Positions 2,991 to 56,080 of a stretch of 64,000 bases of DNA are shown here, piece after piece. The notes under the pieces are model-generated. The model saw only the letters and a program-made list of their open reading frames with translations. It did no database searches and was not told the origin of the DNA. The stretch comes from a virus: the IMG/VR virus record IMGVR_UViG_3300033153_007262, positions 1-64,000 of that record, one strand, 5' to 3'. A program made the translations under genes and the position numbers. Numbering within the stretch: position 1 is the stretch's first letter; each line of letters begins with the position of its first letter.

Positions 2991-3024
2991 AAATGAACCG
3001 GGCAGACACGATTCACGGGGGTTC

Positions 3025-3366: not shown

Positions 3367-3570
3367 ATTAGGGCTGTGAATCGTTCCGATGGGGGTTTTT
3401 GTGTTCTTTGCCGGGTTGAATCAAAAAAGGGGCGGTGAATCATTCCACGGGGGTTCATCCGTGCCAAAGGCGTGCCGGGGCGCAAAGGGGCAATCCAACG
3501 GGCAAATCCACCCATTGGGCGGTTAAGGGCAGAGGGCCGGGGGCTTGGGGCAACCGGGCAAGACATCCTT

Positions 3571-3789
3571 AGGGATGTTTGAAATTTATGAGGGATGGTC
3601 GGACATCATTAAAAATGTGGGGAAATTGTGAGAGATGTTGAGGGATGGTTAAAATTTGTGAGAAATTGTGAGAGATTGTGAGACATCATTAAAATTTATG
3701 GGAAATTATGAGGGATGGTGAGACATCATTAAAATTTATGAGAGATTGTGAGACATCATTAAAGATGTGCGAAAATTGTGATGGATGTT
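3571..3789. repeat. decamer tandem array A (10-bp period)
   Basis: About twenty consecutive decamers run in strict 10-nt register, with a consensus close to GAGAGATTGT and a recurring variant pair GAGACATCAT-TAAAATTTAT. The 20-nt pair occurs identically starting at 3680 and 3720. Register is kept through point changes, so this is a true tandem array rather than chance AT-richness. A period close to one helical turn would place bound proteins or bends on one face of the DNA, as in iteron-type origins or phage packaging sites. Confidence 0.8.
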
Positions 3790-3861
3790 GCCCGGGTTGG
3801 CGCTTAACAGGGCAATAAGTGAGCGATTACGTTGCAGTTATGCGGTAAAAAGGGGCAACAG

Positions 3862-3872
3862 CGACGAGGATT
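3862..3872 (+). promoter_or_regulatory. CGACGAGGATT intergenic motif
   Basis: This 11-mer lies in the non-repetitive spacer (3790-3902) between the two decamer arrays. Matching or one-base-different copies are found in other non-coding stretches at 2687-2697, 48524-48534 (reverse strand), 48568-48578 and 48598-48608. The repeated occurrence outside genes suggests a protein-binding site. The same letters can arise in coding DNA from Asp-Glu codons, so significance needs a count. Confidence 0.3.
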
Positions 3873-3902
3873 TAAGATGTAGTCGGAGGATGTATTAGGA
3901 TG

Positions 3903-4087
3903 TCGGAACATCCCTCGAAATTTATGAGCATCGTGAGGGATGGTGAGAAATTGTGAGGGATTATGATAGATGGTGAGAAATCGTTGGAGATGGTTGGAAA
4001 TTATGAGAGATTGTGAGGGATTGTGATAGATGTGCCGGAAATATGAGAGATGGTGAGAGATTGTAAACGATGTAACAAAATTATGAC
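3903..4087. repeat. decamer tandem array B (10-bp period)
   Basis: This is a second run of about eighteen decamers of the same family as array A (GAGGGATGGT, GAGAAATTGT, GATAGATGGT and similar), again in unbroken 10-nt register, ending about 60 nt before the ACP-like gene. The reverse-strand frame across it reads as a His/Ser/Ile-rich periodic peptide, which is a by-product of the repeat and not a gene. Confidence 0.8.
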
Positions 4088-4149
4088 AAATGTGCGTGCG
4101 GTTACCGGCGCAAGCGGGTACCGGGCGCAAAGCAAAAGGAGGTAGGGCG

Positions 4150-4422
4150 ATGAGCGACGTTGTACGGGACAAAATATACGGTCTGTTAGAGGAACACGCC
4201 GGGGTAAGGGCAAGGGATATCTTAGGCATAAATACTTTAGAGGGCGACCTCGGGATGGATGACCTCGATAAGGTTGAGTTTATTCTGGCGGTTGAAGATG
4301 AGTGGGGCTTTGAGGTCTTAGACGAGGACGAGGGCCGGATGGGGACGGTCGATGAGACGGTCGATTATATTAAAGGGCGGATTAAAGAGAAATCTGACCG
4401 CAAGGAGAAGGGGTTATCATAA
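4150..4422 (+). CDS. acyl-carrier-protein-like protein lacking the phosphopantetheine serine
   Basis: The 90-aa protein matches ACP in length and helix pattern: an N-terminal helix, a loop with LEGDLGMDDLDKVEFI, the conserved acidic helix AVEDEWGFEVLDED, and a closing TVDETVDYI helix. In canonical ACPs the second motif reads DSLD, and its Ser carries 4'-phosphopantetheine. Here the position is Asp (D38), so the protein cannot be a conventional acyl carrier. It may act as a binding partner of host enzymes or a structural scaffold. The start at 4150 follows a perfect AAAGGAGGT site, so the frame's longer upstream extension is rejected. Fold call good, function unknown. Confidence 0.75.
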   Translation: MSDVVRDKIYGLLEEHAGVRARDILGINTLEGDLGMDDLDKVEFILAVEDEWGFEVLDEDEGRMGTVDETVDYIKGRIKEKSDRKEKGLS

Positions 4423-4452
4423 ACAGGGGCAATAAGAGAGGGGCGGTGAGCA

Positions 4453-4821
4453 ATGGGTAAAGACAAGAACACGAAATTTAGATTAAATATGGAGATATCG
4501 CTTGAAGGGATATCAGATGTCCCGGAGGGTAAGGGGCCGGCTGATATCTTTGTCGGATTTCTTATCGGGATGTTTAACCGTTGGGCGGACAGCAAAGGCG
4601 GTGTGACGTACCAAGATGGTAAAACGTTTATGGGCATAAAGGACGCCTTAATGGATGCGCTAAAGACAAAAGAGACGAGCGTTATCCTTGACCGCAGTCA
4701 ATTAAAAACGGTTAACAGGGTTCTCAACGAGGTGTCGACGATACCGTTCGGCGGGCTTGAGATGTTAATGCGCTGTGGGAAGAATATTGAGGAGGCATTG
4801 CAAAGCGGTGAGATTGAATAA
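4453..4821 (+). CDS. hypothetical protein (122 aa)
   Basis: The gene begins 30 nt after the ACP-like gene behind an AGAGGGGCGG site and probably shares its transcript. The product is soluble and mixed alpha/beta, with a cluster of Met and Gly residues near ADIFVGFLIGMFNRWAD and a C-terminal acidic tail (EEALQSGEIE). I recognise no domain. A promoter and a terminator-like hairpin follow within 120 nt, so it closes a short two-gene unit. Confidence 0.6.
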   Translation: MGKDKNTKFRLNMEISLEGISDVPEGKGPADIFVGFLIGMFNRWADSKGGVTYQDGKTFMGIKDALMDALKTKETSVILDRSQLKTVNRVLNEVSTIPFGGLEMLMRCGKNIEEALQSGEIE

Positions 4822-4842
4822 AGAAAATTAAGTAATCTTTAT

Positions 4843-4871
4843 TTGACGGAGAGTATATGTTAAGTTATATT
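4843..4871 (+). promoter_or_regulatory. sigma-70-type promoter
   Basis: TTGACG at 4843-4848 and TATATT at 4866-4871 are separated by 17 bp, one mismatch from consensus in each box. The expected transcription start, about 4878, falls just before a hairpin with a T-tract, so the immediate product would be a very short RNA. Confidence 0.55.
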
Positions 4872-4877
4872 AGTTAA

Positions 4878-4938
4878 CGAACGGGATATCTGCATCGGCG
4901 CCGAAGGGCGTTAAGATGGAGGTGTCCCGTCTTTTTTT
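4878..4938 (+). ncRNA. candidate small RNA or leader ending in an intrinsic terminator
   Basis: Downstream of the promoter, an outer stem pairs ACGGGATA (4881-4888) with TGTCCCGT (4923-4930) and is followed directly by C and seven T residues. Inside it, GCGCC pairs with GGCGT around a GAAG loop. The transcript would be about 60 nt, essentially one extended hairpin with a U-tail, resembling a bacterial sRNA. Alternatively it is an attenuator for the zinc-motif gene starting at 5012. A second inverted repeat, TTTTGTTA/TAACAAAA (4935-4956), follows. Confidence 0.45.
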
Positions 4939-4978
4939 GTTACTGGCATAACAAAATGAGTTCTCCCCCAAAGAGAGA

Positions 4979-5136
4979 GGGGTGTCCGCAGTCTTTCCTT
5001 TGTAAAACAGAATGGGGCGTGAGAGAGTGAGCAATAACGATTTGTATTGTCGCAAATGCCGGTCGCATCATCACCCGGTCGAGTGTCCGAAAGCAATTGA
5101 CGAGAATGTTTTACAAAGAAAGACTCCGAACACCCC
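4979..5136. repeat. long inverted repeat with about 30-bp arms flanking 99 bp
   Basis: The left arm at 4979-5008 and the right arm at 5108-5136 are near-perfect reverse complements, differing by one inserted base and two substitutions. They enclose the start of the zinc-motif gene. Arms this long are far above chance. They could fold into a stable cruciform or RNA hairpin, or mark an invertible or recombined segment. No recombinase gene is adjacent. Confidence 0.65.
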
Positions 5137-5326
5137 TGCACGACAATCCCCGCAAAAGGTCGAGGCGATGTTGCATTTGTCCGGGCGTGGTTACCCCGGT
5201 CAAGGCGATAGAATTAAATGTCACTCCGACCGAGAGGCAGAACGCACGGTAGCGAGTACTGGAAGATTGCAGACGGCGGACGGCCTTAAGCAAGTCGTCC
5301 CTGTCTCTTATGGCGGTGATGGATGA
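5012..5326 (+). CDS. small protein with N-terminal zinc-binding motif
   Basis: The frame encodes 104 aa. Residues 13-25 read CRKCRSHHHPVEC, a CxxC plus His/Cys cluster that could bind one zinc ion. The rest is Arg/Gln/Ser-rich with no recognised fold. Either the ATG at 5012 or a GTG at 5027 could start it, and neither has a strong ribosome binding site. The stop overlaps the next start (ATGA). The left part lies within a long inverted repeat whose right arm encodes residues around VLQRKTPNTP. That could mean the gene was altered by recombination, and the C-terminal half may not be under coding constraint. Confidence 0.45.
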   Translation: MGRERVSNNDLYCRKCRSHHHPVECPKAIDENVLQRKTPNTPARQSPQKVEAMLHLSGRGYPGQGDRIKCHSDREAERTVASTGRLQTADGLKQVVPVSYGGDG

Positions 5327-5511
5327 GAGAGGGTGACGGCAAAATGATATCGAAGCGGGCCGAGATTGGGTGGGGGATAGTTAAATCAAATGGTAAAGGG
5401 CGCCGGTGTACCGAGTGCCGGCATAAAATGTCGATGTATACAAACGGCGACCGATGTAATAATTGCCAAGAGAGATTACGGAGCAAATTAAATTTTATGG
5501 GGAAGATATGA
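5323..5511 (+). CDS. small zinc-ribbon protein (62 aa)
   Basis: The product carries CTEC and CNNC pairs (C29, C32, C45, C48) about 12 residues apart, the classic four-cysteine zinc-ribbon spacing, in a Lys/Arg-rich background consistent with nucleic-acid binding. The start at 5323 overlaps the previous stop by four bases; an internal ATG at 5344 behind GAGGGTGACGG is an alternative. The stop overlaps the start of the next gene. The partner is unknown. Confidence 0.6.
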   Translation: MREGDGKMISKRAEIGWGIVKSNGKGRRCTECRHKMSMYTNGDRCNNCQERLRSKLNFMGKI

Positions 5512-5726
5512 GCCAAAGCCGGGCGATGAGTTTAGTTGAATCGCTGACAAACATTGCGGTTGGATATAGTGTCGCCGTATTAAGTCAGTTAATTGTGTTT
5601 CCATTGTTTGGAATCGATATTCCTCTGCGGAGCAATTTGTTAATTGGGGTATGGTTTACGGCGATATCGTTAATGCGGAGTTATATTATCCGGCGATGGT
5701 TTAACGGGCTGAAAATAGGGAGGTAA
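5508..5726 (+). CDS. small membrane protein of a widespread phage family (DUF7220-like)
   Basis: Starting at the ATG at 5508, the protein begins MSQSRAMSLVESLTNIAVGY. I recognise this opening from a family of short phage membrane proteins, usually near replication or structural genes. Two hydrophobic stretches follow (about residues 18-35 and 42-58), and the C terminus is basic (RRWFNGLKIGR). The start is preferred to the upstream ATG because it overlaps the previous stop and restores the family's usual N terminus. The function of the family is not known to me. Confidence 0.7.
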   Translation: MSQSRAMSLVESLTNIAVGYSVAVLSQLIVFPLFGIDIPLRSNLLIGVWFTAISLMRSYIIRRWFNGLKIGR

Positions 5727-5732
5727 AATATT

Positions 5733-6035
5733 ATGGGCGTGTCAGAAATCATATTTGTCGTGTTATTAGCGGGTGGGATGATTGGTAGCGGAGTTTATGT
5801 CGGGTTAAAAACAAAGAAATGGTATTTCCTCGGCGTGTTTGTTACATTCTTTTTATGTTTTGGGTTATGGGAATGGATAAGTGTTGCGCAGACGGGCGAA
5901 AGCATAAGCCAAACGATATGGGGGCTTGGCGAGAGTAACCCGGTCGGGTTTTGGATTATGATTAGTGCGCTTGCGGTAGCGTGGGCGTCATTGCTGTACC
6001 ATTTTATTGAGAAGAAGATTGGAAAAGAAAAATGA
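5733..6035 (+). CDS. membrane protein with three predicted transmembrane helices
   Basis: The 100-aa protein has hydrophobic segments at about residues 4-24, 29-47 and 70-92, ending in a basic tail (EKKIGKEK). It follows an AGGGAGGT ribosome binding site. Size and topology resemble class I holins, but a second set of holin-like genes lies at 47.4-48.5 kb, and this one sits just before the large terminase. The role is therefore left open. The stop overlaps a possible 36-aa frame. Confidence 0.6.
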   Translation: MGVSEIIFVVLLAGGMIGSGVYVGLKTKKWYFLGVFVTFFLCFGLWEWISVAQTGESISQTIWGLGESNPVGFWIMISALAVAWASLLYHFIEKKIGKEK

Positions 6036-6145
6036 TGGGCATCCATTTCCATAATCCGAGTTTAATAGTTTGGGATATCGATATGTTCGTTTGGGTTTTA
6101 TGGAAAGGGACGACGTTGGGTTTATTTGGACAGGATTTTATATGA
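6035..6145 (+). CDS. very small putative protein (36 aa)
   Basis: A short frame begins with an ATG at 6035 overlapping the stop of the membrane-protein gene, and ends with a TGA overlapping the ATG at 6142 of the large terminase. Both junctions look like translational coupling. That supports it as a real link in the operon and also supports the terminase start at 6142. The peptide is hydrophobic and rich in Trp/Phe/Ile and may insert in the membrane. No family is recognised. Confidence 0.4.
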   Translation: MGIHFHNPSLIVWDIDMFVWVLWKGTTLGLFGQDFI

Positions 6146-7755
6146 TAGAAGAAAATACTGATATAGATAAAGTTGATTTGATGTTCTGCGTCGGTTCGTT
6201 AGGCGAATCGTTGCCGGCAAGACGGCGTGGCAAGGCAATCTTAGACGGCTTGACCAATTGGGAAGAAGACCCGGTCGATATTACGACGTTTGTTGAGAGC
6301 GATGAATACTTAAATCTAAAAGGTGTCGTATGGCCGGCGGTGATGGATGACTTGCGGGATATTTTTGACGTTGACCACGACGTTGTGTTGGCAACGAATA
6401 AATTTAGTCAGTATCAGGAGTGCGTTTTGGATGAGGCCATCGGAGCCGGCAAGAGTTTCATCTCATCAATCGGAATCGTTTATATTACATACAGATTAAT
6501 CTGTTTGAAAAACCCACAGAGGTTTTATAAGAAGGCTCCCGGCACATTAATGGCGATTATGAATATGGCTCCGACGGCCACGCAAGCCAAGAACGTCGTG
6601 TTCGGTGAAATCAAAGCACGGGTTGATGGCTCGCCGTGGTTTAAGGAGTTTGGCGGGCTTGATAATAAAATAAAAAGTGTTCTGCGGTTCAATAAAGGGA
6701 TTACAATACTGCCCGGCAATAGCGCAGAGACTTTTCCTTTAGGATATTCTCTCATCGCTTGGATAATGGATGAGGGCGCCTTTTATACGGACACGGGAGA
6801 CCACGATGTTGCTCAAGAAATTTATTACGCCTTGTACCGCCGGTCGCAGTCCCGGTATGAGGATAGATTTTTAGGGATTATGATTTCGTCCCCGAGGTAC
6901 GTAGACGATTTTATAGAACGTAAAATGGACGAGGCAAAGAGGCATCCCGGGACGGTATATTCAAAGCGCCGTGCCTTATGGGAAAGCAAGCCGGAGGATA
7001 TCGAGGCGATTAAGAACGGCGAGACGTTTGAATTAGACGGTGCGCAGATACCATTAATATATAAAAAGACTTTTGACGAGAACCCGGACAAGGCGTGGCG
7101 GGATTTGGGCGCAAGACCGTCGTTGGTATTGGAACCGTACTTTAAGCAATGGAAATTACTGCAAGCCGGAGTTGACAACACAATGATTCACCCGGCGGAC
7201 AAGGATAATAAATTTTTTGATTGGTTTGTAGGGGAAGAGCCGTTCACATATTACTCACATATTGACTTGGCGCTTACCGGGGACGCTTGCGGTCTTGCAG
7301 TTTGCCATATGGACGTCGATATTATTGTGATAGACTTAATGTTGCAGATAAAACCGCTGTCGGGGAAGGAAATCGACCTCGCAAACGTGCGGTCTTATAT
7401 TTATGAGATGCAAAAGAGGAAGTTTTATTTTGGTAAGGTGACATATGACCAATTCCAAAGTGCCGAGAGCATACAGGAATTGAATAAGCGTAATATTAGC
7501 GCCGAGAGGTTGTCGGTCGATAAAGATTTGGGGCCGTATGATACACTTAAAGAAATGTTTTATTCCGGGCGTGTTAGATGTTATCAAAGCGATATCTTTT
7601 TCACCGAAGCACGGCGGTTGGAATTGATAAAGGGGAAAAAGGTCGACCATCCTCGCAAGGGAAGTAAAGACGTCACCGATGCAGTTGCCGGGGCCGTCTT
7701 TAACTGCGTGCAAGGGGAAGGTTCGTTCGGCGAGATGACAGTTAGCATCCTATAA
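6142..7755 (+). CDS. terminase large subunit
   Basis: This is the packaging motor ATPase and nuclease. With the ATG at 6142 the protein has 537 aa. Walker A is GAGKS at residues 101-105 and Walker B is MDEG at about 209-212. The C-terminal RNase H-like nuclease shows acidic residues in HIDLALTGD (D375), VTYDQF (D436) and SKDVTDAVAG (D510, D513). A TTG start at 6070 would add 24 residues but lacks a ribosome binding site. The ATG at 6142 has AGGA upstream and overlaps the preceding stop. The portal gene follows immediately, as in most tailed phages. Confidence 0.92.
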   Translation: MIEENTDIDKVDLMFCVGSLGESLPARRRGKAILDGLTNWEEDPVDITTFVESDEYLNLKGVVWPAVMDDLRDIFDVDHDVVLATNKFSQYQECVLDEAIGAGKSFISSIGIVYITYRLICLKNPQRFYKKAPGTLMAIMNMAPTATQAKNVVFGEIKARVDGSPWFKEFGGLDNKIKSVLRFNKGITILPGNSAETFPLGYSLIAWIMDEGAFYTDTGDHDVAQEIYYALYRRSQSRYEDRFLGIMISSPRYVDDFIERKMDEAKRHPGTVYSKRRALWESKPEDIEAIKNGETFELDGAQIPLIYKKTFDENPDKAWRDLGARPSLVLEPYFKQWKLLQAGVDNTMIHPADKDNKFFDWFVGEEPFTYYSHIDLALTGDACGLAVCHMDVDIIVIDLMLQIKPLSGKEIDLANVRSYIYEMQKRKFYFGKVTYDQFQSAESIQELNKRNISAERLSVDKDLGPYDTLKEMFYSGRVRCYQSDIFFTEARRLELIKGKKVDHPRKGSKDVTDAVAGAVFNCVQGEGSFGEMTVSIL

Positions 7756-48485: not shown

Positions 48486-48516
48486 GAGCCGGGGCATCAA
48501 ACCCCGGCTCTTTTTT
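48486..48516 (+). terminator. strong intrinsic terminator ending the late operon
   Basis: GAGCCGGGG (48486-48494) pairs perfectly with CCCCGGCTC (48502-48510), followed by six T residues. It separates the structural/lysis genes from the ribozyme-containing operon. Confidence 0.92.
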
Positions 48517-48778
48517 ATGCCAAAATCCTCGTCGACAAACCCCCTCCCCCGACGACGACGCCCACACCGACGAGGAATTGAAAACCGCACAATTCGTCGA
48601 CGAGGAATCGATATTTCCGACCCACCACACACCCCGGGATTCCCGCCCAAAATGTCACATTTGGAGATTAAATACCTCAATCCTCGTAGAAATAGATTCG
48701 GGCCTTTCTGAGATGTTGTAACCCTTTGAAACTAGGCGACTTACGTCATTCCCCGTACCCCGCCCGGCCCGGTTTACC
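48517..48778. other. non-coding spacer with inverted repeat and CGACGAGGA motifs
   Basis: No credible gene is seen; the frame starting in the terminator T-tract has no ribosome binding site. The region holds an 11-bp inverted repeat, TCCTCGTCGAC (48526-48536) and GTCGACGAGGA (48596-48606), plus another CGACGAGGAAT at 48568-48578. It lies between a late terminator and an early-type promoter, a natural place for operators. Confidence 0.55.
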
Positions 48779-48807
48779 TTGCTTGTTATGATATATTATA
48801 TTATATT
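48779..48807 (+). promoter_or_regulatory. sigma-70-type promoter of the ribozyme operon
   Basis: TTGCTT (48779-48784) and TATATT (48802-48807) are 17 bp apart within a strikingly AT-rich island (GATATATTATATTATATTAT). It is the only clear promoter found upstream of the long operon that follows. Confidence 0.55.
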
Positions 48808-48811
48808 ATAA

Positions 48812-49361
48812 GTGGGACGGGGAGGGACGCCGAACCACCGGGACGGTCGAGGGCGAGACGCCGGGGAAAGAGAAGGCCGACAGGGATTGACAAAAAGGGA
48901 AGCGGAAACAGGGACGACCAGCCGGGGGAACAGGACGAGGCGGGCCGGACGCAAACCCTCAAGGACACGGCGGAATAAGACCCGGGAGCATAAAGGCGCA
49001 AGCCAGAAACCCGCCCGGAGGACGCCGGCTACCAAAACCGAGAGAAGCCAATAAAGTTTACGGGGCTTGAAAAAACTCAAACCGAAATCGGCGGAAGGTA
49101 GATTGACCGAATCCCGAAAGGCCCGGTCAAGTGAAAGAGGCAGAGGATTGGAAAAGAAGCAATTTTCAAAAAAAGGTATTTTGCCATATGCCTTAAATAA
49201 CAATAATGGGAATGGCGGGGAACGGCGGTTGCCCCAAATTTTCAAACGCCCTTTTGTCCGTTAAGCCAAACGGAGTTATCAGGCGAAAGTCTACGGCCCT
49301 TACCCGGGCCGGTAGGCTCCGCAAGGCGGTCGTTCCCCTTGCGCTGATGAGCCAAACGCAA
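48812..49361 (+). other. long leader region, purine-rich, probably untranslated
   Basis: The sense strand is rich in G and A. It contains two open frames (48812-49054 and 49067-49264) that encode only Arg/Gly/Lys/Thr-rich peptides with GTG or TTG starts and no ribosome binding sites; I treat them as non-coding with some doubt. A 7-bp hairpin CGCAAGG/CCTTGCG lies at about 49320-49342, just ahead of the first ribozyme. The segment probably forms the 5' untranslated leader of the operon. Confidence 0.45.
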
Positions 49362-49416
49362 ACCCGCTGATGAGACCGGGAGGCACGGTCGAAACGGTAT
49401 AAAAAACCGTCCGGGT
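49362..49416 (+). ncRNA. type I hammerhead ribozyme 1
   Basis: Stem I is ACCCG/CGGGT. The core is CTGATGA, then stem II GACCG/CGGTC with a 7-nt loop, GAAA, and stem III CGGT/ACCG with an A-rich loop. Predicted cleavage follows C49411 in GTC. Unlike the others it has no gene directly before it and ends the leader. Downstream, GGGTAATAATGCCC can form a 5' hairpin before the AACGGAGGTG site of the gene at 49447. Confidence 0.9.
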
Positions 49417-49446
49417 AATAATGCCCAATAAAAACGGAGGTGCATT

Positions 49447-49785
49447 ATGAGAGTACAAATCGATGCAACAATTGAGAAAGCCGACCAGAAATTGGCGGTG
49501 GGAACGGGCCTGCAAGGATATTTCAGCCGAGGCACAACCTACAAAGCGCTAGTTGAAAAGTTAGGAAAGCCAAACGCCGGAGAATCAGGCGACGGCAAGG
49601 TCAAGGCGGAATGGATTGTCAAACTGAAGTTTCATAGGAAAGACCCCGGCATAATATTTACAATCTACGATTATAAATCGTCGGTTGCGCCGGAGGAGAA
49701 TACCGATTGGCACATAGGAGGCAAAGGTCAGGCAATGCTCGAAATCTTTTCCCAAGTAATGGGGATTGGGATTGAGAACGATTAA
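49447..49785 (+). CDS. hypothetical early protein (112 aa)
   Basis: The ATG follows CGGAGGTGCATT, the leader shape used by several genes here. The protein is mixed alpha/beta, with AEWIVKLKFHRKDPGIIFTIYD in the middle and a glycine-rich end. I recognise no family. It is the first gene delimited by hammerhead ribozymes on both sides, and its last base is also the first base of stem I of ribozyme 2. Confidence 0.65.
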   Translation: MRVQIDATIEKADQKLAVGTGLQGYFSRGTTYKALVEKLGKPNAGESGDGKVKAEWIVKLKFHRKDPGIIFTIYDYKSSVAPEENTDWHIGGKGQAMLEIFSQVMGIGIEND

Positions 49786-49850
49786 CCCGCTGATGAGCCG
49801 TTGAGATTACGGCGAAACGCCCCGGGGCGCAAGCCCCCGGGCGTCCGGGT
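49785..49850 (+). ncRNA. type I hammerhead ribozyme 2
   Basis: Stem I ACCCG/CGGGT starts on the last A of the preceding TAA. The core is CTGATGA, with stem II GCCGT/ACGGC (loop TGAGATT) and GAAA. Stem III is long (5 bp, a C-C mismatch, then 5 bp) and is capped by a GCAA tetraloop. Predicted cleavage follows C49845. The 3' product starts with CGGGTAATAATGCCC, able to refold as a hairpin. Confidence 0.95.
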
Positions 49851-49879
49851 AATAATGCCCAAGAAAATGGAGGTGGGAA

Positions 49880-50395
49880 ATGGCATTAGGAACGAATTAT
49901 AAAAGAATCGGAAGGAAGCAAGACCTCATTTTGCGGATTCAAATCGCCCGGGTTGGACATCTTGGCGGGGTTTACGGCAAGATGACGAGGGACGAGGCGG
50001 TCGAAAGTACAAAAGGTTACAGCCGGAAATTAACGGTTGGAGAATTAGCCGAAATATTAAAACCGCTTGAGGCAATAGCAAAGAAGAAAAGGCCGACCGA
50101 AGGGAAATGGAAATTCGTTTATTCCAAAGGCTTAACGCCGACGGCAAGGATTGTGTCGGTTGATTTGCTAAACAAAGGATACTCGGATTGGATTTGCGAG
50201 ATGCCCTTTGGCAGTGAATCGGAAGCGAGGGAGATGGGCGGTAGCCACATCGCCAACGCCCGGTTAATAGCAAGGGCGCCGGAACTAATAGAGAAGTTAA
50301 AGGAGGCTGAAAAGTTTTTGAAAATGCTCGGCGTGAAAGACGAAATTGTTGATGAGATAAATTCATTAATAAATAAAGTTGAGCAGACGAGATAA
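49880..50395 (+). CDS. early protein with Mu gp16-like N terminus
   Basis: The 171-aa protein opens with RKQDLILRIQIARVGHLGG, and KLTVGELAEIL follows near residue 52, a pattern like the Mu gp16/DUF1018 regulators. The C-terminal half contains the segment HIANARLIARAPELIEKL, frequent in small early phage proteins, followed by a coiled coil. The N-terminal match is weak. The gene is flanked by ribozymes 2 and 3 and begins behind GGAGGTGGG. Confidence 0.6.
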   Translation: MALGTNYKRIGRKQDLILRIQIARVGHLGGVYGKMTRDEAVESTKGYSRKLTVGELAEILKPLEAIAKKKRPTEGKWKFVYSKGLTPTARIVSVDLLNKGYSDWICEMPFGSESEAREMGGSHIANARLIARAPELIEKLKEAEKFLKMLGVKDEIVDEINSLINKVEQTR

Positions 50396-50396
50396 A

Positions 50397-50460
50397 ACCC
50401 TCTGATGAGCCGGCGAGATACCGGCGAAACCGCCCGGGCGCAAGCCCGGACGGTCAGGGT
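50397..50460 (+). ncRNA. type I hammerhead ribozyme 3
   Basis: Stem I is ACCCT/AGGGT, a compensatory change relative to ribozyme 2. The core is CTGATGA with stem II GCCGG/CCGGC (loop CGAGATA) and GAAA. Stem III is CCG/CGG, a C-A mismatch and a 6-bp helix capped by GCAA. Predicted cleavage follows C50455. It starts one base after the stop codon. Confidence 0.95.
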
Positions 50461-50488
50461 AATAATGCCCATAACAAGGAGGTGCATT

Positions 50489-50944
50489 ATGAATAACACG
50501 CCGACAAAAAAGTATCTTCAAGAGAATGTTATTGTTGACGAGGTCAGCAAGAACAAGGCCGGCAATTTTATTTTTAGGGAGGGGTTCTTCTATACGCACG
50601 GGCGCACGGCAAACAGCCACGCCGACAGCATACAGAAGCAACTTACGGATTTGGGATTTAAGAATTTCAAATTCGTCGACACCGGGGAGCATTGGAGGGA
50701 ATTCAAAGGTGGCGCCTCGTTAAGAACGCAGTCGCATTGGTATGTCGAAGTTAAGTTTGACGCCGAGGAGCCGGATGTCACGGCGCCGGTTAAGGTTGGC
50801 GACAAGTTGTACTCTTGGGACGGTAAGATTGGAACGGTAAAGAAGATTCACGCTTTGGGCGATATGGCCGACGTGGATTTTGGCAACGGCAACATTTACG
50901 GAATTGCCTTTAGCCGAATCAAAGGTAGCAAAGTTGGAAAATAA
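50489..50944 (+). CDS. hypothetical early protein with KOW-like C terminus
   Basis: The start at 50489 follows AAGGAGGTGCATT; the longer upstream frame runs through ribozyme 3 and is rejected. The 151-aa protein has an N-terminal alpha/beta part (FIFREGFFYTHGRTANSHAD, residues 27-46). The C-terminal barrel-like segment VKVGDKLYSWDGKIGTVKKI resembles a KOW or SH3-type nucleic-acid-binding fold. The function is unknown. Confidence 0.65.
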   Translation: MNNTPTKKYLQENVIVDEVSKNKAGNFIFREGFFYTHGRTANSHADSIQKQLTDLGFKNFKFVDTGEHWREFKGGASLRTQSHWYVEVKFDAEEPDVTAPVKVGDKLYSWDGKIGTVKKIHALGDMADVDFGNGNIYGIAFSRIKGSKVGK

Positions 50945-51010
50945 ACCCGCTGATGAGATTGTGAAAGTCAATCGAAACGCCCCGGGGCGCAAGCCCCCGG
51001 GCGTCCGGGT
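50945..51010 (+). ncRNA. type I hammerhead ribozyme 4
   Basis: Stem I is ACCCG/CGGGT and the core CTGATGA. Stem II GATTG/CAATC (loop TGAAAGT) differs at three of five pairs from ribozyme 2 while keeping pairing. GAAA and a GCAA-capped stem III with one C-C mismatch follow. Predicted cleavage is after C51005. It begins immediately after the TAA. Confidence 0.95.
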
Positions 51011-51038
51011 AATAATGCCCAAAACAAGGAGGCGCATT

Positions 51039-51317
51039 ATGAAAAAGACAACGGGATATACGTCAAAGAAGGTTCACTATTGGCAGTTGAACCCAAAAGA
51101 CCGGGCAACATATGACCGGCAAGAATCATTAAAAGAAGAAGGGGATTGTGAACGGTTTTATTTTTGGCTGTTCACCCCGGGCATCGGGTACCGGCAAATG
51201 GGGTACACCGAGGGATACAAAACGGTCGAGGCGCTAAAGGAACATTGCATTAATAATCGTACCGATTGTATTTACCGCATTACAAGGTCACAGATTTGTC
51301 TTTCAAATAAAAGATAA
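51039..51317 (+). CDS. early protein, paralogue A (92 aa)
   Basis: The ATG at 51039 follows AAGGAGGCGCATT. The protein shares ERFYFWLF, RQMGYTEGYKT and YRITRSQI with the gene at 51822, so the two are paralogues two ribozymes apart. The family is not known to me. Aromatic residues dominate the core, suggesting a small single domain. The pair indicates that gene-plus-ribozyme cassettes have been duplicated. Confidence 0.68.
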   Translation: MKKTTGYTSKKVHYWQLNPKDRATYDRQESLKEEGDCERFYFWLFTPGIGYRQMGYTEGYKTVEALKEHCINNRTDCIYRITRSQICLSNKR

Positions 51318-51318
51318 A

Positions 51319-51376
51319 ACCCTCTGACGAGTCTTTGAAAATTAAGACGAAACCGCCGGCCCCCGGCGGTCAGGGT
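51319..51376 (+). ncRNA. type I hammerhead ribozyme 5
   Basis: Stem I is ACCCT/AGGGT. The core is CTGACGA, with the variable position C instead of T. Stem II is GTCTT/AAGAC with loop TGAAAATT, then GAAA. Stem III CCGCCGG/CCGGCGG has a 3-nt loop. Predicted cleavage follows C51371. It starts one base after the stop. Confidence 0.94.
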
Positions 51377-51405
51377 AATAATGCCCATAAAACAGGAGGT
51401 GCATT

Positions 51406-51729
51406 ATGGTAAAACGAATCGATAAATTAAAAAAGTTGGTAGCGGAGTTTGAGTCCTTGCAGAAAAGGTACAAACATACCGGCGCCGACGACACCGAGCC
51501 GGACGCACAGTTTCAGTTACGCTTGGTACAGTTTTATCAAGGGAATAGCGAGTTGCCGGCAAGAAGAGAATGGGAACTATACTCGGGCCATAAAAGGCAC
51601 GACGAGGTTGCCGACCTTTTGACGGCGAAGTTAAAAGAAATCCGAACAGTTATTCACGGCTCGACGGATAGTAACCACGAGGAAATAAAAACATACCTCG
51701 AGGAATATGTTTGGAGAATAGATTTTTAA
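51406..51729 (+). CDS. hypothetical early protein (107 aa)
   Basis: The gene starts behind CAGGAGGTGCATT. The product is predicted to be largely helical, with a basic N-terminal coil (IDKLKKLVAEFESLQKRY) and an acidic C-terminal helix (HEEIKTYLEEYVWRI). No domain is recognised. It is enclosed by ribozymes 5 and 6. Confidence 0.62.
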   Translation: MVKRIDKLKKLVAEFESLQKRYKHTGADDTEPDAQFQLRLVQFYQGNSELPARREWELYSGHKRHDEVADLLTAKLKEIRTVIHGSTDSNHEEIKTYLEEYVWRIDF

Positions 51730-51794
51730 CCCTCTGACGAGTCGTTGAAAATTACGACGAAATATTCCCCGGCGACGCCGGGGGATATCAGGGT
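51729..51794 (+). ncRNA. type I hammerhead ribozyme 6
   Basis: Stem I ACCCT/AGGGT begins on the last A of the TAA. The core is CTGACGA, and stem II is GTCGT/ACGAC, differing from ribozyme 5 by a compensated pair. GAAA follows. Stem III (TAT/ATA then CCCC/GGGG and inner pairs) is nearly the same as in ribozyme 9. Predicted cleavage follows C51789. Confidence 0.95.
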
Positions 51795-51821
51795 AATGAT
51801 GCCCATAAAAAGGAGGACGTT

Positions 51822-52082
51822 ATGGAAAAGAAAAAGACGACCCAAACGTGGGAAATGACAAAGAAGGAATTGCGGGCGCAAACGTTGGACAAGTCAAAAG
51901 CAGAATCATATGAAACAGAACGATTTTACTTTTGGCTGTTCTCGGAAGCCGGCGGTTGGAGGCAGTTGGGATACACCGAGGGGTACAAAACGGAAAAGGC
52001 ATTGAGAGAAGATAATAAATATCATTTCGATAAGAAAGATATTATCCGCATTACAAAATCAACGATTATTAAAAGAGGCTAA
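51822..52082 (+). CDS. early protein, paralogue B (86 aa)
   Basis: The protein shares ERFYFWLF, RQLGYTEGYKT, a following AL-x-E helix and RITKSTI with the gene at 51039. The N terminus is Lys/Thr-rich and divergent. The ribosome binding site is AAGGAGGACGTT. Both paralogues are single-gene cassettes between ribozymes. The function is unknown. Confidence 0.68.
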   Translation: MEKKKTTQTWEMTKKELRAQTLDKSKAESYETERFYFWLFSEAGGWRQLGYTEGYKTEKALREDNKYHFDKKDIIRITKSTIIKRG

Positions 52083-52137
52083 CCCGCTGATGAGATTGTG
52101 AAATTCAATCGAAACGCCCGGCGACGGGCGTCCGGGT
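52082..52137 (+). ncRNA. type I hammerhead ribozyme 7
   Basis: Stem I ACCCG/CGGGT starts on the last A of the TAA. The core is CTGATGA with stem II GATTG/CAATC (loop TGAAATT) and GAAA. Stem III CGCCCG/CGGGCG is capped by GCGA, a GNRA loop. Predicted cleavage follows C52132. Confidence 0.95.
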
Positions 52138-52166
52138 AATGATGCCCATAAAATGGGAGGTGTATT

Positions 52167-52643
52167 ATGAGCGAGAAAGCATATCTGAAAAAGAAAGGAC
52201 GCCTTGAGTGTATGGTCGAGGTTGCAGAATCGGAGATTGAGTTTATAGACGGCTCAATCGAAAAGGTAAAAGAGAAAGCCGAACGACAAATCAAAAAGTT
52301 GTTAGAGATGTCCGGCAAGATTGAAGACCGCCGGGACAAATACAACGACCAGATTAAACAAATTGATGAACAACTCGGCGCTTGCCAGAAAAGAAAAGTT
52401 GCCAAGACACAGGTACTTGCCGGCGAGGACAAATCGGTATGGGTGTTTTACGAAGCCTACGACTTTGTTGCCGAGGCAAAGATTGAGGCGCTTGGAAAGA
52501 AATTGAAATTAAAAAGAGAAGGAAGCGGTGGAGGATTCCAATCGTCAAAGAGAGATATCTCGTTTGGCCTCGGGGGTAACCCAAAGGAAAAAATCCTCAA
52601 AGCATTCCGTAAACTAAAAGATGTGACGGCAAGGATTTATTAA
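52167..52643 (+). CDS. coiled-coil early protein (158 aa)
   Basis: Residues about 10-85 form an uninterrupted charged helix with heptad periodicity (EIEFIDGSIEKVKEKAERQI). A shorter C-terminal part is rich in Lys and Gly (KREGSGGGFQSSKRDISFG). It probably oligomerises. The gene begins behind GGGAGGTGTATT between ribozymes 7 and 8. No family is recognised. Confidence 0.62.
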   Translation: MSEKAYLKKKGRLECMVEVAESEIEFIDGSIEKVKEKAERQIKKLLEMSGKIEDRRDKYNDQIKQIDEQLGACQKRKVAKTQVLAGEDKSVWVFYEAYDFVAEAKIEALGKKLKLKREGSGGGFQSSKRDISFGLGGNPKEKILKAFRKLKDVTARIY

Positions 52644-52644
52644 A

Positions 52645-52699
52645 ACCCTCTGACGAGTCCGTGCAACCCGGACGAAACGCCCCGGTGGGGCGTCAGGGT
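52645..52699 (+). ncRNA. type I hammerhead ribozyme 8
   Basis: Stem I is ACCCT/AGGGT and the core CTGACGA. Stem II is GTCCG/CGGAC (loop TGCAACC), then GAAA. Stem III is CGCCCC/GGGGCG with a 3-nt loop. Predicted cleavage follows C52694. The downstream hairpin is shortened to GGGTAACCC. Confidence 0.94.
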
Positions 52700-52721
52700 A
52701 ACCCATAACAAGGAGGACGGA

Positions 52722-52937
52722 ATGAGTAAGCAACCACCGAGACCGTACTTCGGTACGGATTGGACAGGAAAATGTATCACGAGCAGTTATATGAGTGTCG
52801 AACGTGTAGAAAAAGAAATCCTAAGTCGATGGGGAGCCGAGAACAGGTGGGGCTACCGCCCCGGGACTTATAAAGTCATCGACGTGAAAAGAAATGTTTA
52901 CAAGGAAATAAGAATTGAGAGAAGAGAAACCCTCTGA
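52722..52937 (+). CDS. small early protein whose stop lies inside a ribozyme
   Basis: The 71-aa basic protein starts behind AAGGAGGACGGA. Its reading frame continues into ribozyme 9: the last codons are part of stem I, and the TGA stop is the UGA of the CUGAGGA core. Coding sequence and catalytic RNA therefore share bases, and cleavage occurs only 52 nt after the stop. The protein (PYFGTDWTGKCITSSYMS near the start) is not recognised. Confidence 0.6.
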   Translation: MSKQPPRPYFGTDWTGKCITSSYMSVERVEKEILSRWGAENRWGYRPGTYKVIDVKRNVYKEIRIERRETL

Positions 52938-52994
52938 GGAGTCTTTGGAAATTAAGACGAAATATTCCCCGGCGACGCCGGGGGATATCAGGGT
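52929..52994 (+). ncRNA. type I hammerhead ribozyme 9 (overlaps a stop codon)
   Basis: Stem I is ACCCT/AGGGT. The core CTGAGGA contains the in-frame TGA of the preceding gene. Stem II is GTCTT/AAGAC (loop TGGAAATT), then GAAA. Stem III closely matches that of ribozyme 6. Predicted cleavage follows C52989. The downstream hairpin GGGT/ATCC keeps pairing through a compensating change. Confidence 0.93.
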
Positions 52995-53030
52995 AATAAA
53001 ATCCATAACAATTTAACACAGGAGGTGTCT

Positions 53031-53480
53031 ATGGAATTTATGTACAACGATGGAGGACGTGAGGACGCCGGGTATAAAGGTAGCGCCGGAGACTGCGTCG
53101 TCCGTGCCATCTCAATCGCAACCGGGAAGCCTTACCAAGAGGTGTACGACAAATTGAAAGACGCAAACCTCACGTTTGCATACACAAAAAGATGTCGTGT
53201 CGCCCGGAAGTTATTAAAGAGAGGCAGTACGCCGAGAAACGGGAATTACAAAAAAGTGTATCGGAAGTATTTAGAGGCGCTTGGATGGAAGTGGACACCG
53301 ACGATGTTCATCGGTAGCGGGTGCAAAGTCCACCTCAAAAAAGACGAGTTGCCCGGCGGTAAACTTATTGTAAATGTTTCAAAGCATATAACTGCGGTTG
53401 TCGACGGAGTTATCAATGACACATTTGACTGCTCGAGGGACGAGACAAGATGTGTGTACGGATATTACATCAAAAACTAA
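53031..53480 (+). CDS. papain-like cysteine peptidase-fold early protein
   Basis: The 149-aa protein contains AGDCVVRAISIATGKPYQEVY, a widely found phage motif with the likely nucleophile Cys at residue 22. Later it has KHITAVVDGVINDTFDCS, providing His and Asp in papain-like order. Such proteins are thought to be proteases, transglutaminase-like enzymes or inactive relatives. The start at 53031 follows GGAGGTGTCT. A plain hairpin (53491-53508) replaces a ribozyme after this gene. Confidence 0.7.
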   Translation: MEFMYNDGGREDAGYKGSAGDCVVRAISIATGKPYQEVYDKLKDANLTFAYTKRCRVARKLLKRGSTPRNGNYKKVYRKYLEALGWKWTPTMFIGSGCKVHLKKDELPGGKLIVNVSKHITAVVDGVINDTFDCSRDETRCVYGYYIKN

Positions 53481-53490
53481 AGAGAACCCC

Positions 53491-53508
53491 GGCGAGGGTT
53501 TCCTCGCC
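53491..53508 (+). promoter_or_regulatory. intergenic hairpin
   Basis: GGCGAGG (53491-53497) pairs with CCTCGCC (53502-53508) around a 4-nt loop, between two early genes where upstream junctions carry ribozymes. It precedes the AAGGAGGG site of the next gene. There is no T-run. Confidence 0.5.
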
Positions 53509-53526
53509 CCAAACAAGGAGGGCAAG

Positions 53527-53928
53527 TTGAAGATTGTAAAATTCATTGTGCCGGAGAATTTGAAAGCCGGTGAGATTTACCCCGACCATAAAGTAATCGC
53601 TTATGGTGAAGTTGCGGGTGACAGCGGACAAGTTTACGACGTCGGGCGGTACGCCGACCTCGAATACTTCTGTTCGTGCAAGGGCCGGTTATTCAACCGG
53701 CAAAGCGAATGCAAACACATTCGGTTGTTCAAAGAACGGGAAGCCGACGAGATTATTGCGGAGGACGACCCGACCGAGACCCCCGGCGCCGAGTTTTGGA
53801 AGTCGGAATGGTGTGACTGTAACAAAGAGGACGCCCCGGTATTTTTTGACGACGGGGAGTGTTCTTGCGGAACGGTGAAGCATCATTATCATTGTAAATT
53901 CTGCGGTAAGATTACACAGATTGGATAA
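53527..53928 (+). CDS. SWIM zinc-finger protein with C-terminal zinc ribbon
   Basis: The best start is a TTG at 53527, directly behind AAGGAGGG; the longer frame begins inside the previous gene and is rejected. The 133-aa protein has a SWIM motif, CxCx(n)CxH, in FCSCKGRLFNRQSECKHI (about residues 43-60). A second cysteine set follows (WCDCN, CSC, CKFCG) resembling a zinc ribbon with His residues. SWIM domains bind nucleic acid or proteins. The role here is unknown. Confidence 0.7.
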   Translation: MKIVKFIVPENLKAGEIYPDHKVIAYGEVAGDSGQVYDVGRYADLEYFCSCKGRLFNRQSECKHIRLFKEREADEIIAEDDPTETPGAEFWKSEWCDCNKEDAPVFFDDGECSCGTVKHHYHCKFCGKITQIG

Positions 53929-53940
53929 TACAAACAACCC

Positions 53941-53968
53941 GGGGCGTGGGTATAAACGCTCACGCCTC
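53941..53968 (+). promoter_or_regulatory. intergenic hairpin
   Basis: GGGGCGTG (53941-53948) pairs with CACGCCTC (53961-53968), including one G-T pair, upstream of the GGAGGAG site of the DUF932 gene. It looks like a transcript-stabilising hairpin rather than a terminator because no T-tract follows. Confidence 0.5.
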
Positions 53969-53987
53969 CAAACAGGAGGAGAAGAAA

Positions 53988-54965
53988 ATGGCACACGCAG
54001 TTAACGAAGGGAAGCGAATGTTTTATGTTGGCGAGGTACCGTGGCACGGATTAGGCACGGCCCTCGACAAGCCGGCTACGTCGGTCGAGGCAATTGCATC
54101 GGCGCAGTTGGATTATCCCATCGAGTTAAAAGAAATACAGACCGTCGATGGCAGAATGATTGACGGGAAGCGGGCAACGGTGAGAGGCGATACAAAAGTC
54201 CCCCTCGGTGTTGTCGGTGACGGATATCGTGTTGTCCAGAACGTCGAAGCATTTAGTTTCTTCGACGAGGTGGTCGGCGAAGGTCAAGCCATCTATCATA
54301 CCGCCGGGGCTTTAGGAGCCGGGGAACGAATTTGGATACTTGCGAAGTTGCCGGGCGAGTTAATTATAGGGAAGGAAGACAAGGTTGATGAATATCTTTG
54401 TCTTACTAATTCCCACGACGGCAGAAGTTCGTTAAAAATGTATTTCACGCCAATCCGAGTTGTTTGTCAGAACACGTTGTCGATGTCAATGAAGGACGCT
54501 AAAGACGGCGTTTCGATTCGACACTCCGGCAACATTAAAACTAAAGTTGAAAAGGCGCAGGAAACTTTACGCCTTGCGACAAAGTTTTATCAGGAGTTCG
54601 GCGAGGTAGCAAAGCAGTTAGGAAACACAAAGTTAAAAAAGGAACAGGTCGAGGGATATTTTACCGCCCTGTTGTTCAAAGGAGACAAGGAAAAAGAAAA
54701 AACGTCTGTGCAACTTAAACGTCAGAGAAATGAATTGTTGGCGCTGTGGGAACACGGCAAGGGCAACGATATCAAAGACATTAAGCACAGCGCTTGGACG
54801 GCCTACAATTCCGTAACGGAATATGTTGACCATCACAAAACGTTCAAAGGCATTCAGAAAGACCCGTCGACCAGATTAAAAAATATCTGGTTCGGCACCG
54901 GGGCGATTACGAAAGGCCGGGCGTTTGATGGCATTTTAGAAACAGCCGGTATCAAGGTAGGATAA
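53988..54965 (+). CDS. DUF932 phage/plasmid-like protein
   Basis: The 325-aa protein fits the DUF932/TIGR03299 family: MFYVGEVPWHGLGTALDKPA near the start, VVGDGYRVVQNVEAFSFFDE (about 84-103), then TNSHDGRSSLKMYFTPIRVV with the conserved VCQNTL. Family members occur on phages and plasmids and their function is not established. The ATG at 53988 follows CAGGAGGAGAA; an upstream in-frame start inside the hairpin is rejected. The length is typical. Confidence 0.85.
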   Translation: MAHAVNEGKRMFYVGEVPWHGLGTALDKPATSVEAIASAQLDYPIELKEIQTVDGRMIDGKRATVRGDTKVPLGVVGDGYRVVQNVEAFSFFDEVVGEGQAIYHTAGALGAGERIWILAKLPGELIIGKEDKVDEYLCLTNSHDGRSSLKMYFTPIRVVCQNTLSMSMKDAKDGVSIRHSGNIKTKVEKAQETLRLATKFYQEFGEVAKQLGNTKLKKEQVEGYFTALLFKGDKEKEKTSVQLKRQRNELLALWEHGKGNDIKDIKHSAWTAYNSVTEYVDHHKTFKGIQKDPSTRLKNIWFGTGAITKGRAFDGILETAGIKVG

Positions 54966-54979
54966 TTACCAGACGGCCC

Positions 54980-55025
54980 GGGAGGGTGGCTCGCTACGGC
55001 GGGTTGCCCTCCCTTAAAGAAGGGA
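54980..55025 (+). promoter_or_regulatory. mutually exclusive hairpins over a ribosome binding site
   Basis: GGGAGGG (54980-54986) can pair with CCCTCCC (55007-55013). Alternatively, TCCCTT (55010-55015) can pair with AAGGGA (55020-55025), which contains the ribosome binding site of the gene at 55035. The two helices share bases 55010-55013, so only one can form. This is the geometry of a translational switch. Confidence 0.45.
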
Positions 55026-55034
55026 GTACGCCTT

Positions 55035-55274
55035 ATGGGAAAGAGCAAAGCAGAAACATTATTGAAATGGATACTGTGGCATTACCCGAACGGATATTTT
55101 AGGACATCCGTCCGGGGTGTCCCGTGCCTCGTCGTTAAAAAAGGCAACACCGAGTTGGGCGTTGCATATTTTGGCAAGTCGGATTCGTTCAGAATGTTTG
55201 CCAATGACGTCGGCGAGAAGTGGGATATTAAAACAAAAGAAGAGGTTATCGAATACCTGAAGGGAGGTGATTAA
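55035..55274 (+). CDS. small early protein (79 aa)
   Basis: The 79-aa protein is mixed alpha/beta (ETLLKWILWHYPNGYFRTS, then strands LVVKKGNTELGVAYFG) and ends acidic. Its ribosome binding site, GAAGGGAG, lies within one of two competing hairpins. The last codons contain GGGAGGTG, which serves the clamp-like gene. No family is recognised. Confidence 0.58.
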   Translation: MGKSKAETLLKWILWHYPNGYFRTSVRGVPCLVVKKGNTELGVAYFGKSDSFRMFANDVGEKWDIKTKEEVIEYLKGGD

Positions 55275-55275
55275 T

Positions 55276-55761
55276 TTGAACCTCAAACAATTAAAAAGAT
55301 TGTCAAAGGTCGCTAAGAAAAACTCGGCAGAGGTTTTGCAGTATGTTGTTATAACCCCCGAGCATTTAATTGTGACCGACGGCAAAGTGTTATTCAAAGA
55401 GAAGCATTACAGCCGTAACCCGCCGGCGGAGACGTGTTATATCAAGCACGATGCGGTGGCTTCATTAAAAGGAACGATGTTTATAATCCGGGACGGCATT
55501 GGCTCGACGGACAAAGGTACGATTGAGGTAAAAATGAAAACCGACGTTCAGTACCCGAATTGTGAAAATCTGCTAAAGACAGTGAGGAAGGGCGAGAGGC
55601 TCCACCGGGTTAAACTATACGGGGAGGTATTAAAAACGCTCGCCGATTCATTGGACAAGGAAGCAAAATATGAATTTCAATTCCCAAAAGACCCCGGGCA
55701 ACCGATTATTATTACCGGGCCGGTTGGCGTTGAGATTTTACTTTGCCCCCTGTATAAATAA
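55276..55761 (+). CDS. sliding-clamp-like protein, short form
   Basis: A TTG at 55276, 8 nt after GGAGG, is the best start; the GTG at 55267 lies within that site. The 161-aa protein ends with a helix LKTLADSLDKEAKYEFQFP and the segment QPIIITGPVGVEILLCPLY, a pattern typical of the last domain of beta-type sliding clamps. The N-terminal 90 residues look like a second clamp repeat. At about 160 aa it would have to trimerise or more to encircle DNA, or act otherwise. The similarity is moderate. Confidence 0.5.
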   Translation: MNLKQLKRLSKVAKKNSAEVLQYVVITPEHLIVTDGKVLFKEKHYSRNPPAETCYIKHDAVASLKGTMFIIRDGIGSTDKGTIEVKMKTDVQYPNCENLLKTVRKGERLHRVKLYGEVLKTLADSLDKEAKYEFQFPKDPGQPIIITGPVGVEILLCPLYK

Positions 55762-55775
55762 AAGAAAGGAAGCGA

Positions 55776-56021
55776 ATGCCAAGAAAAGATGTAGGAGACA
55801 CAGACGCAATCCGGGTTTACCTCGGTAAGAAAGCGGGGGCTTGGACGATTGAGCCACCGAGAATTGTTGTAAAAGAATGGGCAGAGATGCGAGGCGTGAA
55901 CACGTCGGGGACGGGAAGATGGAATATCAAACAGACGCACGATATTCTAATCGTCGCCCAATCGATTAAGGAAATAACAAAATTAATCAAGGCGTATCGG
56001 CGCAAGAATCAAATCCTCTGA
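55776..56021 (+). CDS. small early protein whose stop lies inside a ribozyme
   Basis: The 81-aa protein starts behind AAAGGAAG and is basic with a helical C terminus (IKEITKLIKAYRRKNQIL). Its final codons form stem I of ribozyme 10, and its TGA is part of the CUGAUGA core, as for the gene at 52722. No family is recognised. Confidence 0.6.
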   Translation: MPRKDVGDTDAIRVYLGKKAGAWTIEPPRIVVKEWAEMRGVNTSGTGRWNIKQTHDILIVAQSIKEITKLIKAYRRKNQIL

Positions 56022-56080
56022 TGAGACCGTGAGAGCCGGTCGAAACGCCCCGGGTGATTACCCGACCGGGGCGTCAGGAT
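56013..56080 (+). ncRNA. type I hammerhead ribozyme 10 (overlaps a stop codon)
   Basis: Stem I is ATCCT/AGGAT, a new compensatory variant. The core CTGATGA contains the in-frame TGA of the preceding gene. Stem II is GACCG/CGGTC (loop TGAGAGC), then GAAA. Stem III begins CGCCCC/GGGGCG with an inner GGGT/ACCC hairpin and a 4-nt bulge. Predicted cleavage follows C56075. It is the last copy in the array. Confidence 0.93.

Follow-up and report, generated by a model that had tools for sequence, protein, structure and literature searches.

Hammerhead ribozymes in a phage operon

Our subject is an array of hammerhead ribozymes (HHRs) in the viral record IMGVR_UViG_3300033153_007262 (69,406 bases), of which the window, the whole stretch of DNA considered here, comprises positions 1-64,000. 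Ten type I HHRs, preceded by one of type II, stand between the genes of a tailed-phage operon that is probably an early one, its earliness being an interpretation of ours. The ribozymes are given below with cut positions predicted from sequence and, for the type I copies, with scores of a covariance model, R1, that is described further on.

49281..49357, plus strand, type II HHR, predicted cut after 49319 (Rfam RF02276 and our own scan)
49362..49416, plus strand, type I HHR copy 1, cut after 49411, R1 49.8 bits
49785..49850, plus strand, type I HHR copy 2, cut after 49845, R1 65.1 bits
50397..50460, plus strand, type I HHR copy 3, cut after 50455, R1 54.5 bits
50945..51010, plus strand, type I HHR copy 4, cut after 51005, R1 59.9 bits
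51319..51376, plus strand, type I HHR copy 5, cut after 51371, R1 49.2 bits
51729..51794, plus strand, type I HHR copy 6, cut after 51789, R1 42.2 bits
52082..52137, plus strand, type I HHR copy 7, cut after 52132, R1 64.7 bits
52645..52699, plus strand, type I HHR copy 8, cut after 52694, R1 56.7 bits
52929..52994, plus strand, type I HHR copy 9, cut after 52989, R1 39.7 bits
56013..56080, plus strand, type I HHR copy 10, cut after 56075, R1 57.9 bits

A strict pattern scan (CTGANGA, stem II, GAAA, stem III, TH and a stem I of at least 4 bp) gives ten matches, all on the plus strand of the window; the minus strand has none, nor do 50 random windows of equal dinucleotide composition. Each copy combines CTGANGA, a 5-bp stem II with a loop of 7-8 nt, GAAA, stem III and a 5-bp stem I, and the cut-site base H17 is C in 10/10 copies (TC; UH, not UG); stem I is open, while stems II and III are closed by loops. 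A sequence-only reading of the window had proposed these ten elements, this architecture and the ten cut sites, and all of them were recovered, the cuts to the base. The catalytic core is invariant across the ten copies while the stems change on both strands. Stem I occurs in the three paired versions which that reading had listed (ACCCG/CGGGT, ACCCT/AGGGT and ATCCT/AGGAT), and stem III in several, all paired. Stem II is fully paired, with G-C as its first pair in all ten copies, but comes in seven distinct versions rather than the eight initially counted, as copies 1 and 10, 4 and 7, and 5 and 9 have theirs in common. Identical stem III hairpins are found in copies 6 and 9, and likewise in copies 2 and 4. 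Because the copies are related by duplication, their agreement does not amount to ten independent observations.

Loop II usually reads UGARAN(N)U (8/10 copies begin with UG), beside a 5-bp stem I that is followed by AA, a pattern that the window copies have in common with many phage HHRs; within the window copies, no covarying pairing could be demonstrated for a tertiary contact of loop II with the side of stem I. At another locus (L261, 2991-6430), each loop II is complementary to the bases right after stem I, in the covarying versions UGACC/GGUCA, GGCC/GGCC and CAGCC/GGCUG. This pairing is, as predicted from the covariation, a Watson-Crick tertiary contact, and the bases that pair with loop II can later join a leader hairpin.

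None of the window HHRs reaches the Rfam gathering thresholds; scores below threshold for most copies had been named beforehand by the sequence-only reading as refuting. The scores are indeed below threshold, but the cut-off is uninformative for phage type I HHRs, because, in six other phage arrays with some 50 HHRs in total, a single copy attains it. The covariance model R1 was trained on 12 HHRs, all of them from viral and genome contigs other than the window; as its members were picked by the scanner, the pairing counts of the training set are partly given by construction. On the 69.4-kb record it finds exactly ten type I copies, at 39.7-65.1 bits (E 1.6e-10 to 6e-19), and its next-best match reaches 11.7 bits. 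For Pseudomonas phage PaP3, whose HHR is among the core-variant ribozymes reported as active (PMC3088659), R1 yields 31.7 bits, below every type I copy of the window. R1 is a sequence model able to find phage HHRs below the Rfam cut-offs. The window HHRs resemble Rfam RF00163, RF02276 and RF03152 in their core, three stems, strand order and cut after UH, but differ from the Hammerhead_1, Hammerhead_II and RAGATH-1-hammerhead members in scoring below the gathering thresholds.

Ten was not the full count, as the type II HHR at 49281-49357 had been overlooked. It scores 30.3 bits with Rfam RF02276 (E 0.006; the gathering score of 37 is not reached), and our own scan assigns it stems I, II and III of 7, 3 and 6 bp. 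In its layout, GGC-GAAA-stem III-TC is followed, after the cut, by CGCAAGG..CCTTGCG-CTGATGA-GCC, so that stem II is open, stems I and III are closed and the core is intact. Loop I (CGTT, 49331-49334) can form a 4-bp pseudoknot with the 3' tail (AACG, 49355-49358), as has been described for most type II HHRs (PMC3088659). Cutting by the type II HHR and by copy 1 would free a 92-nt RNA and separate a long non-coding leader from the first mRNA.

Stop codons, leaders and related arrays

The genes of the array are as follows, together with two genes of the ribozyme-free block between copies 9 and 10.

49447..49785, plus strand, gene 1 of the array, 112 aa
49880..50395, plus strand, gene 2, 171 aa, PHROG 1273
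50489..50944, plus strand, gene 3, 151 aa
51039..51317, plus strand, gene 4, 92 aa, paralogue of gene 6 (42.5% identity)
51406..51729, plus strand, gene 5, 107 aa, PHROG 16722
51822..52082, plus strand, gene 6, 86 aa, paralogue of gene 4
52167..52643, plus strand, gene 7, 158 aa
52722..52937, plus strand, gene 8, 71 aa
53031..53480, plus strand, gene 9, 149 aa, PHROG 3754, opening the HHR-free gene block
53988..54965, plus strand, DUF932 gene, 325 aa

Genes 1-8 encode proteins of 71-171 aa, most of which lack known relatives, and each of these genes has an HHR on either side. At nine gene ends, the stop codon is found between -9 and +1 nt relative to stem I. Seven of these codons abut the stem, and in two copies the stop codon is the TGA of the catalytic CUGA itself (52935-52937 in copy 9, where it ends the upstream gene, and 56019-56021 in copy 10). 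Every type I cut is followed by a GGAGG-like ribosome-binding site and a start codon, with a leader of 27-41 nt, and all window copies are in sense orientation, running from stop to leader, with none reversed or within genes. The proposal of type I hammerheads at the gene junctions of one operon is supported. The lack of plus-strand terminator-like sites in the gene junctions from 49.3 to 56.1 kb, and of plus-strand promoter-like sites between 48.8 and 54.5 kb, weakly favours the processing of one long transcript that is discussed below.

Relatives were collected by two pattern scans of IMG/VR and from other fetched loci, the window included. They comprise at least 299 HHRs in at least 196 loci (at least 287 of type I, at least 9 of type III and at least 3 of type II); the same search gave none in 2.8 Mb of randomised sequence. 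At least about two dozen loci, some of them near-duplicate contigs, have three or more HHRs. G010 (L309, 43.9 kb) carries 14 type I and 4 type II copies between small genes at positions 420-7404, nearly all of its type I copies having the same stem II and differing in stem III; further arrays, likewise taken from whole records or larger pieces, hold 9 (G002), 8 (G001), 7-8 (G003), 7 (G005 and G007), about 7 (G021) and 6 (G004). The window array is large, not the largest found, and with arrays of 3-18 in many viral contigs, the statement that phage and metagenome hammerheads are mostly single copies or simple tandem repeats was too strong.

Among the matches listed, 234 unique type I copies, the window's ten included, had enough flank for a comparison with random positions on the same contigs, a stop being counted as the end of an open frame. 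A stop codon lies -10 to +4 nt from stem I in 177/234 (16.8 expected), and 154/234 (14.4 expected) combine such a stop with a start codon that lies, with its ribosome-binding site, no more than 80 nt past the cut. In an independent set from bacterial and archaeal contigs, with at most two HHRs per locus, 44 of 66 copies show this placement against 3.8 expected. As the arrays were in part found with patterns modelled on the window, their likeness in stem I and loop II is biased, but their gene context is not.

Two side observations concern the company of these ribozymes. A DUF932 gene is found in or beside the HHR array in 7/13 array records of at least 30 kb, as opposed to 0/20 unrelated viral records (Fisher p 0.0004); the seven are the window, G001 (L311), G003 (L441), G010, G015 (L440), G018 (L439) and G021 (L438), and four of them have an HHR on both sides of the DUF932 gene. 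HHR-free relatives of DUF932 are common. In Legionella contigs, RAGATH-13 and RAGATH-32 RNAs (L330 1890-2195, L344 6310-6405) occur on the same pieces as hammerhead motifs.

Downstream of the cut, the 3' strand of stem I can be reused in a 5'-terminal hairpin in 9/10 window copies, with only 2 bp possible in copy 10. The leader of copy 1 is an example.

49412..49446, plus strand, leader after the cut of copy 1, hairpin GGGUA(auaa)UGCCC, then GGAGG

Variants in the window are GGGUA(AUAA)UGCCC, GGG(UAA)CCC in copy 8 and GGGU..AUCC in copy 9. With another sequence, the stem I 3' strand can enter a 5'-terminal hairpin (GGGA..UCCC) in all seven copies of G003; G004 likewise could reuse that strand in its leader hairpin (e.g. 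CGGGAAG..UUUCCCG), and in L261 such a hairpin, offset 0-2 nt from the 5' end, was seen by eye. Such refolding is possible in nearly every copy of these four arrays. Over all type I copies, leader hairpins of at least 5 bp number 38/244, against 18.4 +/- 3.2 in swapped leaders; as this overall excess is only moderate, the 5'-terminal hairpin is a feature of some arrays at most.

Two further ideas about the leader were rejected. The conserved leader sequence GGGTAATNATGCCCA has 50 matches in IMG/VR, none of them beside an HHR, so that they are attributable to chance. In copies 1 (49420-49450), 3, 4 and 5, a pairing of the leader segment AAUAAUGCC with GGUGCAUUAU, at the start codon and ribosome-binding site, is possible in competition with the 5'-terminal hairpin; a ribozyme-controlled translation switch, with the leader masking the ribosome-binding site before the cut and releasing it afterwards, was nevertheless discarded, since the predicted gain in accessibility on cutting is at most 0.18 and the remaining window copies have not kept this pairing.

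Upstream of the array, two features lie next to or within a region that is apparently non-coding.

48486..48510, plus strand, strong intrinsic terminator at the end of the late (structural) gene block, GAGCCGGGGCATCAAACCCCGGCTC followed by TTTTTT
48773..48802, plus strand, promoter-like site of weak consensus (TTTACC-18-TATATT, 9/12), a candidate for the array transcript

The late block to the left contains terminase, portal, head and tail genes, the window terminase having 29-33% identity to those of Rhodococcus phages and relatives; to the right lie genes for DUF932, an SNF2-type helicase, a DnaC-like loader and a DnaB-like helicase. Promoter-like sites in the region, including the one at 48773..48802, are not more numerous than expected by chance. 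The approximately 770 nt between the terminator and the type II HHR (48511-49280) may hold a promoter or an origin. Beside ATATTATATTATATTATA, at around 48.8 kb, the sequence shifts abruptly from C-rich to purine-rich and remains purine-rich onward; a structured noncoding RNA at 48.8-49.28 kb was considered and dropped, as the segment folds no better than shuffles (z 0.44). Three of the HHR-free junctions (53485-53515, 53940-53970 and 54978-55015) have GC-rich hairpins before the ribosome-binding site, of up to -35 kcal/mol, which match no ribozyme family, and a search for other ribozyme classes at the HHR-free junctions gave no Rfam match.

Probable transcript processing and its alternatives

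What does this arrangement say about the role of the array? Motifs, conservation and placement are plain in the DNA; from them we infer that the RNA is cut in the infected cell, and that the cutting serves processing and end protection. We consider it likely that the HHRs cut the early polycistronic RNA co-transcriptionally into monocistronic mRNAs with structured ends. Each ribozyme would cut the nascent transcript just downstream of its own stem III, at most about 60 nt from the stop codon of the upstream gene and about 30 nt before the downstream start codon. Hammerhead cleavage is known to leave a 5'-OH on one product and a 2',3'-cyclic phosphate on the other. The 5' leader of a single-gene mRNA would begin with the former and a short hairpin from the 3' strand of stem I, followed by the ribosome-binding site, and the 3' tail of the upstream message would end in the stem III hairpin and the latter. 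The stability and translation of each gene would be made independent of its neighbours, as with the RiboJ insulator. This reading is favoured because of the placement of the HHRs at stops and leaders, in the window as well as in the viral, bacterial and archaeal sets. Arrays of 6-18 copies in unrelated phages speak for it as well. The processing into single-gene messages that had been suggested from the sequence thus stands as the probable and best explanation, but not as a novel one: the same proposal was made by Perreault et al. (2011), who describe multiple HHRs flanking single genes in prophages (PMC3088659).

Several observations weigh against processing. Five operon junctions (53.5-55.8 kb), between gene 9 and copy 10, are without a ribozyme, and in G001, G005, G010 and L137 the leader hairpin is not above shuffles. 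Gene 9 has orthologues of 46-76% identity on 28 viral contigs, all without a type I HHR within 4 kb, and the DUF932 relatives on 20 contigs have none within 7 kb; these proteins therefore manage without ribozymes elsewhere. The gene 9 relatives reach up to 66% identity over full length, and three near-identical ones have a single type II HHR, on the opposite strand of the locus. Among the relatives searched, no orthologues of array genes carry the same HHRs. Since type I HHRs are absent near the gene 9 and DUF932 relatives, arrays seem to have few founders and to grow within the genome, their stems diverging under constraint, and not to travel with genes.

Because the stops abut or lie in the core, stem I and the core are necessarily covered by a ribosome that has reached the stop codon, and cutting may consequently be timed by translation. 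A more ambitious version of the processing reading would see a general punctuation of early genes in many phages, with stop-embedded HHRs, ribosome-gated cutting and a refolding of stem I that caps the mRNAs and blocks re-ligation, i.e. a natural counterpart of RiboJ; in this full form, we regard it as tentative and rather doubtful. The terminating ribosome could equally time the cut if the ribozymes acted as down-regulators, with cutting exposing the mRNAs to decay or freeing regulatory leaders, and the stops abutting or inside the core in most copies, here and elsewhere, would fit such a role. However, the hairpins on both new ends and the full ribosome-binding site after the cut suit stable, translatable products, and the predicted accessibility of that site is little changed by cutting, so that we find down-regulation unlikely.

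Somewhat less probable again is that the unit of ribozyme and leader, of about 95 bp, is a spreading intergenic repeat, multiplied by recombination in the genome and merely tolerated. Stem I and leader are alike within each phage and different between phages, whole stem III hairpins recur within the window, its leader stands beside an HHR in no other viral contig among the matches listed, and relatives of the array genes lack the unit, all of which would agree with such a repeat. Yet after duplication stems II and III have diverged with their pairing kept and the core invariant, and all copies run in sense from stop to leader and spare the genes. That the RNA between two cuts is circularised, 5'-OH to 2',3'-cyclic phosphate, into gene-sized circular RNAs is very improbable: each gene lies between two ribozymes whose stems I are identical or almost so, and such ends are known to serve RtcB ligases and the hammerhead back-reaction as substrates, but the 69.4-kb record has no RtcB gene (host bacteria may carry one), and between several neighbouring copies the core-adjacent pair of stem I would be a mismatch (ACCCG vs ACCCT). 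Circular or spliced products were also sought by Perreault et al., who report none (PMC3088659).

Relation to known systems

HHR clusters between phage genes are already known as a kind. Perreault et al. report prophage clusters in C. scindens, A. caulinodans and A. tumefaciens, tandem phage arrangements of which three cleaved in vitro and one in E. coli, and a transcript of halovirus HF2 with a 5' end mapped at most 3 nt from the HHR cut site (PMC3088659); a review of 2017 repeats the clustering and calls its role open (PMC6155905). Like those clusters, the window has several sense HHRs between genes of one phage operon. In the 2011 paper, however, the tested fragments measure about 2 kb and the largest arrangement in the text is a triple, though its figure 3 may show larger ones, whereas the window holds eleven HHRs in 6.8 kb and eight consecutive genes flanked on both sides. 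Later papers on large HHR arrays were not found in the open-access literature, which omits many subscription journals. As far as checked, our additions are the array size, the generality, the statistics of stop-codon fusion, the association with DUF932 and the mixture of type I and type II copies within arrays. Also new is that, in several unrelated arrays, the 3' strand of stem I can serve again in a hairpin at the 5' end.

The closest engineered parallel is RiboJ, an sTRSV-derived hammerhead with a 23-nt hairpin, which normalises 5' UTRs and raises transcript stability (PMC7536230). As in RiboJ, a hammerhead in the window is predicted to cut upstream of a ribosome-binding site, to leave a 5' hairpin and to insulate expression from upstream sequence. 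While RiboJ is placed at the 5' end of single transcripts, the window ribozymes are natural and stand between operon genes, and their hairpin, unlike that of RiboJ, reuses the ribozyme's own stem I strand. The purpose of phage hammerheads has been in question since their discovery in 2010-2011. With arrays of 11-18 stop-fused copies, each followed by a leader with a ribosome-binding site, in many unrelated phages, the processing idea can be put to the test, and such arrays would be natural models for ribozyme insulators.

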